Source: Armatimonadota bacterium
GTDB lineage: Bacteria > Armatimonadota > Armatimonadia > Armatimonadales > Capsulimonadaceae
Direction of reading: 5' to 3'
Assembly: GCA_025353925.1 (NCBI GenBank)
Contig: JANXNV010000302.1
Location: 1-39,882, forward strand
Length of the DNA: 39,882 nucleotides
In this document: one piece after another, positions 1,961 through 25,195 of the stretch
Numbering within the stretch: position 1 is the first letter of the stretch
How the letters are laid out: the number at the start of each line of letters is the position of its first letter
Notes under the pieces: generated by a model
What the model was told of the DNA's origin: nothing
Database searches by the model: none
The model's input: the letters and a program-made list of their open reading frames with translations, nothing else
Position numbers and translations under genes: made by a program

Positions 1961-3250
1961 ATGAGCGCATACCCCAATCTCGCACGGCGGCATAAGGTCG
2001 CCTATGTTGGAACCTACCCGCCGAAAGAGTGCGGCATCGCGACCTTTACGCTTGATGTCGTCAACTCCACCGACCTTTCCGGCTGGCGCAGCATCGTGTT
2101 CGCTGTTGATGACGCCGCCCCGACCGAGCCTCATCCCGACAGCAAGGTCGTCTACACGGTCGAGAAAGAGAATCGCGCTGACTATTTGCGGGCGGCACGG
2201 CTGCTCGACAAGCACAAAGTCAGCCTCCTTTCGATCCAGCACGAGTACGGCATTTACGGCGGCGATCATGGCGACTATATCCTGGACCTGGTCCGTGCGG
2301 TGACTATGCCGGTGGTCGTCACCCTGCACACGGTGCTGCCGAACCCTTCCGAGCCGCAGAAGCGGATCCTGAAGGAGATGGAAAAGTATGTCTCGTCGTT
2401 CGTCGTCATGGCGCACAAAGCCGTCGAGCTGCTGCAGACCGCCTACGGGATTGCTCCCAGCAAAATCCGATTCATCCCGCACGGTGCCCCGAATGCTCCG
2501 ATTAACGCGGAGCAAGCCGCCAAAGAGAAGCTGAAGCTGGAAGGTCGGCGAATCCTCTCGACCTTTGGTTTAATCTCGCCAAACAAGGGCATCGAGGATG
2601 CAATCGCCGCGATGCCTGCAATTGTCGAAAAAGAGCCGACCGCAACTTATCTTGTTTTGGGGCAAACGCACCCGGTCATCAAGCGCAAAGAAGGCGAATG
2701 GTACCGGGAAAGCCTGATGAAGCAGGTGGCAGAGCTTGGGCTGACGGAGAACGTCAAGTTCGTCGACAAATATTTGACATTGCAGGAGCTGCTGGACTAC
2801 CTGCTGGCGACCGATGTCTATATCACTCCCTACTATGCTAACCCGCATCAGATCACTTCGGGGACACTGGCTTACGCGATGGTCACCGGCAAAGTCATCG
2901 TTTCAACCCCCTACTTGTATGCTGAGGAGCTGCTTGCTGAGGGCAGAGGCTTTCTCTACCCATTCCGGGACAGTGTGAAGCTTTCTGAGATCATTGGGGA
3001 TCTGCTCACCAACGATGCCCTGTTCGAGCGGACGACCGCTTTGTCCTACCAGTATGGCCGCTCGATGACCTGGCAGAGCGTCGGCATCCAGTACACCAAG
3101 CTGTTCACGGAAATGCTGGATGAGCGCTGGGTCAATCACCGCGCTGCTATGGATGCCCTCTCGATCCCCGGCCTGACGGAATTCGTCCGTGAGGGCGAGA
3201 TCCGCCCCGCCGCCGCCCTTCCGGCACTCTCCGGAGCAGGCGGCTTTTAG
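1961..3250 (+). CDS. GT4-type (GT-B fold) glycosyltransferase
   Basis: 429 residues. The N-terminal domain carries the 'VGTYPPKECGIATFT' opening typical of this group, and 'HEYGIYGGDHGDYIL' at about residues 94-108. The C-terminal Rossmann domain begins near 'ILSTFGLISPNKGIEDAI' and contains the donor-binding region with 'TSGTLAYAMVTGKVIVSTPYLYAEELL', the GT4 equivalent of the E-x7-E motif. Such enzymes move a sugar from a nucleotide sugar to a glycan, usually keeping the anomeric configuration. There is no signal peptide, so it is cytoplasmic. AAGGAG lies 11 bases before the ATG. The next genes, a glycosidase-like protein (30 bases downstream) and a phosphohexomutase, suggest one pathway that makes or remodels a glycan. 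The substrate cannot be read from sequence. Confidence 0.88.
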   Translation: MSAYPNLARRHKVAYVGTYPPKECGIATFTLDVVNSTDLSGWRSIVFAVDDAAPTEPHPDSKVVYTVEKENRADYLRAARLLDKHKVSLLSIQHEYGIYGGDHGDYILDLVRAVTMPVVVTLHTVLPNPSEPQKRILKEMEKYVSSFVVMAHKAVELLQTAYGIAPSKIRFIPHGAPNAPINAEQAAKEKLKLEGRRILSTFGLISPNKGIEDAIAAMPAIVEKEPTATYLVLGQTHPVIKRKEGEWYRESLMKQVAELGLTENVKFVDKYLTLQELLDYLLATDVYITPYYANPHQITSGTLAYAMVTGKVIVSTPYLYAEELLAEGRGFLYPFRDSVKLSEIIGDLLTNDALFERTTALSYQYGRSMTWQSVGIQYTKLFTEMLDERWVNHRAAMDALSIPGLTEFVREGEIRPAAALPALSGAGGF

Positions 3251-22375: not shown

Positions 22376-22621
22376 ATGGCTCAACTCTCCACACTCACGA
22401 CCAGCGCGATACCACGCAGCGGTATAGAAAAGAAACATTTGCAAACTGTCGGCAAGGATAACACCGAGAAAGACATGCCATCGGAGCTTGAATATTTGCA
22501 GGAAGGTAGGCACTATGCGGACGCAATCGGGGCGTTCGCGGATGATCCAATGCTTGATGCCATGATGGCAAATATCCGTGAGCGCCGCCGCGAAATGAAT
22601 GCGGATGATAACATCAGCTGA
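22376..22621 (+). CDS. Small antitoxin-like protein of a VapBC-type pair
   Basis: 81 residues. A clear AGGAGG at 22364-22369 lies 6 bases before the ATG. The sequence is charged and helical at the C-terminus ('DDPMLDAMMANIRERRREMNADDN'), a pattern common for antitoxins that bind PIN toxins through their C-terminal part. The N-terminal half shows no recognised DNA-binding motif. The end overlaps the PIN-domain toxin gene by 23 bases (22599-22621). Function is inferred from that partner. Confidence 0.65.
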   Translation: MAQLSTLTTSAIPRSGIEKKHLQTVGKDNTEKDMPSELEYLQEGRHYADAIGAFADDPMLDAMMANIRERRREMNADDNIS

Positions 22622-23051
22622 ACCTGGGTATTTACTGGATGCCGATACCCTTGAGCGAGTGTTCCGTGCGAACTCACGCGTGGCAGGGCGGCTAAACCAA
22701 ACACCGAACGAACAGGTTTGGATCAGTTCCATTACAATTGAGGAAATGCTTAGCGGTGCGTTGAGCGAGATCAACAAAGCACGCGAACGGGGTGCGAGCC
22801 GCGATGTTGAGGCCGCTTCCAGATACTTGACCCGCCTCATCGAAAGGCTCCGTGTCTTCAACATTCTTGCGTATACAAACGTCGCCGAAGAACACTACTT
22901 ATCTTACCCTGCCGCGATCAAACGTATCGGCAAGATGGATTGCCGACTGGCTGCCCACGCGCACACAAGCAGCTTCACTGTGGTTACGTGCAACACTTCA
23001 GATCTCGGCAGGATTCCAGGCACTTTAGTTGAAGATTGGAGCGGAGGCTGA
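22599..23051 (+). CDS. PIN-domain VapC-like toxin
   Basis: 150 residues. PIN-domain acidic residues: D14 and D16 in 'YLLDADTLE', Glu in 'ISSITIEEML' (about residues 43-52), and Asp in 'GKMDCRLAAHA', followed by 'VTCNTSDLGRIPG' and a terminal 'VEDW', the typical VapC C-terminal pattern. Such proteins are Mg-dependent RNases. The first Asp is followed by A-D instead of the more common T-N. Starts at 22599 (ATG); 22605 is an in-frame alternative. It overlaps the antitoxin by 23 bases and ends 53 bases before the second copy of the 55-bp repeat. Confidence 0.8.
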   Translation: MRMITSAEPGYLLDADTLERVFRANSRVAGRLNQTPNEQVWISSITIEEMLSGALSEINKARERGASRDVEAASRYLTRLIERLRVFNILAYTNVAEEHYLSYPAAIKRIGKMDCRLAAHAHTSSFTVVTCNTSDLGRIPGTLVEDWSGG

Positions 23052-24048: not shown

Positions 24049-24414
24049 TCAGCCAATAGCCTCAAGCAGCTCCACTCGGCTTCCAAACGGATCCTCGACA
24101 TACACCCGCTTAAATCCTTCTAACGGCTCATCGCGGACTGCCGGATGCCCGGCGGCAGAACACTCTGTAGCGGCAGCCTCCACATCGCGCACCAGAAGTG
24201 CCGGATGCGCTTTTTTGGAGGGCCGAAAGTCCGGGTCCACTCCCAGATGCAGTTTTAGACTGCCGCTGACAAACCAGACCCCACCGCGCCCCACGAGGTT
24301 CGCCGGTTTCGGCTGCTCCGCGAGACCCAACACGCCGACGTAAAACGCCCGTGCTTCGTCTTCTTGTCCTGCCGGTATTGCGAGCTGCACGTGGTCGAGA
24401 GCGTAAATTTCCAT
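24049..24414 (-). CDS. VOC-superfamily (glyoxalase-like) protein
   Basis: 121 residues, one vicinal-oxygen-chelate unit set: 'ALDHVQLAIPAGQEDEARAFYVGVLGL' at residues 4-30, 'GGVWFVSGSLKLHLGVD' mid-protein, and the closing 'KRVYVEDPFGSRVELLEAIG'. His in 'DHVQL' and Glu in 'RVELLE' sit at usual metal-ligand places. Such proteins act on small metabolites or give antibiotic resistance; the role here is open. The gene lies between small modules and has no clear ribosome site. Confidence 0.87.
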   Translation of the reverse strand: MEIYALDHVQLAIPAGQEDEARAFYVGVLGLAEQPKPANLVGRGGVWFVSGSLKLHLGVDPDFRPSKKAHPALLVRDVEAAATECSAAGHPAVRDEPLEGFKRVYVEDPFGSRVELLEAIG

Positions 24415-24434
24415 TTAGTAACTTGCGATGAATT

Positions 24435-24806
24435 CTAGGACAGCACTTCAATCGTCATGGTGCCGCCGTCTACGACTTTAATCCGCAACTCATGCCCGTA
24501 GAGCAGAGACATTCCGATCAGGGGTTCGATCTCAGCGGCATCGGCTTCGATCGCTCTCGTTTGACCATCCCAAAAAATTTCTGCCTCGTAGATGTCAAAA
24601 ATCTCCTCGCTCCCGTTGGCGAGTATCGCCCGCCCCCGACTGATCCTTGTCAATCCAAGTGCTGCAATTAGAGAAAGCGGCAATGTCAGGAACCCGGTGA
24701 ACCCAGTGTCGACAACCGCCTCGATCTCCCGTGACTGACCATGAATATCGTGAACATATAAGTGGAGGGTGGCTTCTCGCTACGCATTGACGGCACCAAA
24801 AATCAT
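24435..24806 (-). pseudogene. Retropepsin-like clan AA aspartic protease gene with in-frame TAG at codon 9
   Basis: Reading from the ATG at 24806 gives 'MIFGAVNA', then TAG (24780-24782), then 'REATLHLYVHDIHGQSREIEAVV' and the active-site motif D33-T34-G35 in 'VDTGFTGFLTLP'. The frame then continues to a normal end with 'PLIGMSLLYGHELRIKV', typical of clan AA aspartic proteases. The stop is the only defect: the frame is otherwise open over 123 residues, the usual length. The ATG overlaps the stop of the upstream gene (ATGA, 24803-24806), as expected for an intact pair. The only normal start after the TAG is a TTG beyond D-T-G, so restart would lose the active site. Recent nonsense mutation, sequence error or read-through are possible. 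Confidence 0.82.
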
Positions 24807-25078
24807 GCTTGGCCCCGGAAAGAATGACCGCCCATTTGATGCAATGCGCGATGCCCAATACGTATACACCAGATTTCTGCATCAGGGATTTGATTCATGA
24901 GGAGATGCGAAGCCGACAAAGCATCTTCGGCAATTGCATAAGTGCCACTTTTGACATCAATTGCAACGACTTTGCCACTATTGCCGTCTTCTACAAGGAA
25001 ACGGATTTGTCGTTCGTAAATGTCATCACCGCGATGAGCGGTTTCTTCAGCGGAATAGTGCTGTGTTTGTACGGACAC
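24803..25078 (-). CDS. Conserved small protein paired with retropepsin-like gene
   Basis: 91 residues. Start is GTG at 25078 with AAGGAG (25085-25090) 6 bases upstream. The sequence 'YSAEETAHRGDDIYERQIRFLVEDGNSGKVVAIDVKSGTYAIAEDALSASHLLMNQIPDAEIWCIRIG' fits a small protein family that usually lies directly before clan AA aspartic protease genes. Its function is not known to me. Ends in ATGA overlap with the protease gene. The two genes look like a two-gene module, possibly of the toxin-antitoxin kind; that is conjecture. Confidence 0.75.
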   Translation of the reverse strand: MSVQTQHYSAEETAHRGDDIYERQIRFLVEDGNSGKVVAIDVKSGTYAIAEDALSASHLLMNQIPDAEIWCIRIGHRALHQMGGHSFRGQA

Positions 25079-25195
25079 AATGTTCTCCTTTCAGCTAATG
25101 TACACCGGTCCGCGGTAGTACGCACAGAAGAAAAAGCCCTCCACTGCTCCTCCTAGAAAGATAGAATAAGCGCGAGCTAGGGCGTGAGATCAGAG

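Follow-up and report, generated by a model that had tools for sequence, protein, structure and literature searches.

A retropepsin-like protease gene in an Armatimonadota bacterium, coupled to a small conserved partner and probably inactivated by a recent nonsense mutation

We examined two small overlapping genes in a 39,882-nucleotide stretch of Armatimonadota DNA (hereafter, the window). The downstream gene, on the minus strand at 24435–24806, has 123 codons plus a stop, starts with an ATG whose first base is 24806, and carries a single interruption, an in-frame TAG at codon 9 (24780–24782) downstream of that ATG; it encodes a retropepsin-like clan AA (DTGF) protease and is a probable young pseudogene. 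Translation of the minus strand from 24806 to 24435 gives MIFGAVNA, a stop, REATLHLYVHDIHGQSREIEAVVDTGFTGF...MTIEVLS, and a second stop (in a longer rendering of the same frame, MIFGAVNA, stop, REATLHLYVHDIHGQSREIEAVVDTGFTGFLTLPLSLIAALG...TMTIEVLS, stop). Past the codon-9 TAG (24782–24780), 114 codons are open up to the natural TAG at 24437–24435, and the D33-T34-G35-F36 active site is present, with the catalytic D-T-G (codons 33–35, 24702–24710) intact. The upstream gene (24803–25078, minus strand), hereafter the partner, encodes 91 amino acids and is intact, with AAAGGAG a few bases ahead of its GTG start and a TGA stop that overlaps the protease ATG at 24806 (ATGA). These features agree with a sequence-only reading of the same DNA, which had described a frame complete except for one TAG at codon 9, a conserved D-T-G and C-terminus, and a start overlapping the upstream stop by ATGA. 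The same reading had held that gene calling hides the defect, and the mechanical ORF caller indeed begins the protease at TTG 24683 (codon 42, 24681–24683, minus strand), which is the first standard start past the TAG and lies beyond D33-T34-G35. Automatic calling from this TTG thereby disguises what is probably a dead enzyme gene as an 82-aa "hypothetical".

The frame after the stop matched the NCBIfam model for clan AA (DTGF) aspartic proteases, TIGR03698, at E = 1.5e-14 across 92 residues, covering model positions 12–105 of 107; the score, taken without the protease N-terminus, was 54.2 bits, about 3 bits short of the curated cut-off of 57.35. Pfam Asp_protease_2 matched the same frame weakly. 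When read through, the protease aligned from codon 1 to its end with 19 intact relatives, and M1, G4, D33, T34, G35, L62, W79, and G98 were invariant in this 20-sequence alignment. An AlphaFold model of the read-through frame built on that alignment was retropepsin-like (mean pLDDT 94.9). Its best match among solved structures was the retropepsin-like protease 5c9b of Rickettsia conorii (18% identity), with retroviral proteases next, and the top fold matches had E values of about 1e-4 and TM scores of 0.5–0.65. A sequence search of solved structures matched designed repeat proteins alone, which we dismissed as artefacts, and no phage relative of the protease was found. The family match and the modeled fold bear out the retropepsin-like identity first proposed from the letters of the sequence. 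Homology, a predicted retropepsin fold, and conservation of the paired gene order together indicate that the window frame was once a real retropepsin-like protease gene.

The pair lies beside a downstream glyoxalase-family gene (24049–24414, minus strand), which falls mostly inside a segment where the sister species has a different sequence. This segment, comprising the glyoxalase gene and the pair (24086–25192), was compared with the corresponding site in one other species of the genus, where two unrelated genes replace them; the flanks there, a sigma-factor region and a 230-aa gene, align at 84–91% DNA identity. The G+C content of the pair is 51%, versus 59% for the window. Because the pair is absent at the sister-species site and deviates in G+C content, it is, as far as these comparisons indicate, an accessory insertion or replacement and not a core gene. 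The genome contains five protease copies, of which the other four are stop-free, and at least six partner copies; an intact pair lies, for instance, on contig C101. Directly after one orphan partner copy (G000:C298:1596-1847) comes an unrelated gene, and no trace of a protease is left there. In addition, an 81-aa ORF overlaps a PIN-domain gene near the protease (22376–23051, plus strand), forming a VapBC-like pair; PIN matches in the genome number 24, with an in-frame stop in two among the matches listed.

We found that the partner was directly upstream of the protease in nearly all loci examined, and that the start–stop overlap was exactly −4 in 46 of the 51 distinct protease copies with an identified start. 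The pair was present in MAGs named Chloroflexota, Dehalococcoidia, Planctomycetales, Gammaproteobacteria, and Acidimicrobiia, and on Nostoc and Trichormus plasmids. A pseudogene is unremarkable in itself; the interest lies in this conserved pair, in which almost every protease copy examined, in several phyla, is accompanied by the same specific small partner, mostly with the exact four-base overlap. On plasmid pNSMS101 of Nostoc sp. MS1 (NZ_AP023442.1), the pair separates pglZ from pglX in a BREX-1 system (L162 2205-2842), and on plasmid A of Trichormus variabilis (NC_007410.1), a conjugative plasmid, it adjoins a ParD/RelE-ParE-type toxin–antitoxin pair (L163 2154-3225). No credible Pfam or NCBIfam match was obtained for the partner in 28 members. 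Its model consists of one long helix followed by a small alpha/beta unit (pLDDT 85.7), and no solved structure in the PDB matched it. PADLOC returned no convincing match to the pair, and no publication on it was found in the literature searched; so far as these searches show, the pair is uncharacterised.

As for the consequence of the stop, the protease gene is presumably translationally coupled to the upstream gene of ~90 residues, the pair constituting an accessory module. A ribosome passed on at ATGA after translating the partner would terminate once it had made MIFGAVNA, such that a nonsense change at codon 9 would truncate the product to these residues, while the upstream partner would be unaffected by the protease stop. 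Codon 9 is a variable position in the family: across the 51 distinct copies whose start was identified, it encodes A, R, D, L, N, G, Y, E, Q, S, H, or K, and the window copy alone has a stop there. The sequence-only reading had proposed this comparison of relatives, and its outcome rejects a programmed, conserved codon-9 stop, as no relative has one.

The TAG could instead be suppressed by a dedicated tRNA or read through in a leaky context, with some full-length protease being made. The perfectly kept frame beyond the TAG would fit such decoding, but the decoding apparatus argues against it. No tRNA with a CUA anticodon was detected among 48 tRNA hits in the 94%-complete assembly, and the RF1 gene prfA was intact (486.6 bits), which also rules out loss or reassignment of TAG. 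The suppressor tRNA suggested from the sequence alone is therefore unsupported. Of two odd tRNA hits, folded and read by hand, one was degenerate and its anticodon unclear and the other was truncated; CUA occurred in neither. A tRNA-Leu with anticodon UAG on contig C185 was rejected as a suppressor because it decodes the CUA codon, not UAG; this tRNA (G000:C185:633-706) lacks the long variable arm that a leucine tRNA should have. A TAA flagged as in-frame in a second release-factor hit proved, on reading, to belong to a normal RF2 frame. Furthermore, TAG is often used as a stop in the window, where it terminates 11 of the 37 non-overlapping ORFs with 120 codons or more, and the protease gene itself ends in TAG, so a strong suppressor would overrun the natural stop too. 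Given also that no relative has a codon-9 stop and that breaks in relatives are without TAG bias, we regard readthrough as the least probable of the explanations considered here.

Another alternative is that translation restarts past codon 9 at a non-standard start, yielding a shortened active protease. Termination would occur near the near-cognate codons ATT (codon 21) and ATC (codon 28), the only possible starts before the DTG, and termination-coupled restart at the ATGA overlap is suggested by the conserved geometry. Conversely, no ATG, GTG, or TTG occurs in the protease frame between the codon-9 TAG and the DTG, all standard in-frame starts past the TAG being downstream of the active site, and no ribosome-binding sequence is apparent there. 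A product restarted at these codons would also, according to the model, drop the strands of residues 2–6 and 12–19. In retropepsins, the N-terminal strand helps form the dimer. A restart is thus very unlikely, and since the stretch from the stop to the DTG holds no standard start, no active protease is expected. From the sequence, we consider that the protease would be non-functional and the partner unaffected.

We then considered the lesion against the family background. A search of the phylum, with strong matches defined as those of 70 bits or more and counted by hand, gave 88 protease matches; protease matches were found in 38 of 291 genomes. Of the 88, 10 carried an in-frame stop (4 TAG, 5 TGA, and 1 TAA) at positions spread over the gene, and several further relatives were frameshifted. 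In 73 of the 88 matches the alignment begins no later than model position 4, and among these 73 the window copy alone has a stop in its first 20 codons. In a homologue of the same order (G014:C65; L104 about 3190-3220), a one-base shift breaks the frame near codons 9–10, almost at the place of the window stop; we take this as a coincidence and not as a programmed site, as the other breaks lie throughout the gene. In a PIN-family control covering 15 of the same genomes, stops occurred in about 10 of 150 among the matches listed (Fisher P = 0.23 versus the protease). Loci fetched with the protease had suggested asymmetric decay, with the protease dead and the partner kept, as a toxin–antitoxin signature. 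We rejected this because an unbiased partner search gave in-frame stops in 5 of 95 partners versus 10 of 88 proteases, a difference that was not significant (P = 0.18). As the PIN and partner rates are similar, single-lesion inactivation is an ordinary background event for accessory families of this kind in these genomes.

The rest of the window gene was well preserved. Against a leave-one-out profile of the other 19 sequences, the window copy scored 162.6 bits (rank 6 of 20) and departed from conserved columns at two only, in line with the earlier remark that everything but one codon looks functional. No further lesion was found in the window protease and its profile score was normal, giving no sign of the decay of an old pseudogene. 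At about 56% identity, even the nearest homologues are too distant to gauge codon-level selection since the mutation. The sequence-only reading had taken multiple further defects as the mark of plain decay: these are absent from the window gene, whereas its relatives bear single breaks of their own, each different, which suggests that inactivation has recurred in the ordinary way within this redundant family. Since the remainder scores like intact relatives and carries no second lesion, either the lesion is young or the base is an error, and we infer the former.

The draft assembly comprises 312 contigs, with 94.3% completeness and 4.36% contamination (4.4% when rounded), so a wrong or mixed-strain base is possible, and the gene would then be intact in most cells. 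That every other feature of the gene is intact and scores like functional relatives agrees with a sequencing, consensus, or strain-mixing error, and a second lesion, which would prove relaxed constraint, is absent, which tempers the case for inactivation, although none of the observations speaks directly against it. On the other hand, breaks in this family are frequent across many independent assemblies and are of all kinds. We therefore consider an error unlikely, albeit clearly more plausible than either readthrough or restart, and favor a genuine base over a variant due to assembly or strain. Overall, a recent nonsense mutation probably inactivated a redundant, patchily distributed accessory retropepsin-like gene, a case of ordinary gene loss.

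The pair shares several traits with type II toxin–antitoxin systems, namely two small overlapping genes, many copies, patchy occurrence, and plasmid location. Its likeness to toxin–antitoxin or defence elements is drawn from the copy number, patchiness, plasmids, BREX site, and frequently inactivated members. We tentatively suggest that a 90-aa protein coupled to a retropepsin-like protease might form an undescribed, widespread module that behaves like such an accessory element, with the partner possibly serving the protease as its dedicated inhibitor, guide, or substrate.

Among known systems, no characterised retropepsin-like member was found beside a 90-aa partner in the literature searched. 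APRc (RC1339) of Rickettsia (PMC4140852), RimB (PMC11957791), and RloA (PMC12239564) have the retropepsin fold in common with the window protease, but their genes sit in other gene contexts. The RloA gene shares its operon with genes for a transglutaminase-like and an ATP-grasp protein, and RloA proteases are reported to be redundant in action (PMC12239564). The closest likeness in sequence family, DTGF motif, length (~120 aa), and retropepsin-like model is to the TIGR03698 clan AA proteases, a name annotated on proteases of Nostoc, Tolypothrix, and Trichormus plasmids, from which the window copy differs by its codon-9 stop. As for the lesion, the window copy, in the one assembly analyzed here, resembles young bacterial pseudogenes, in which a single inactivating lesion interrupts an otherwise intact frame (Kuo and Ochman 2010, PMC2916853).
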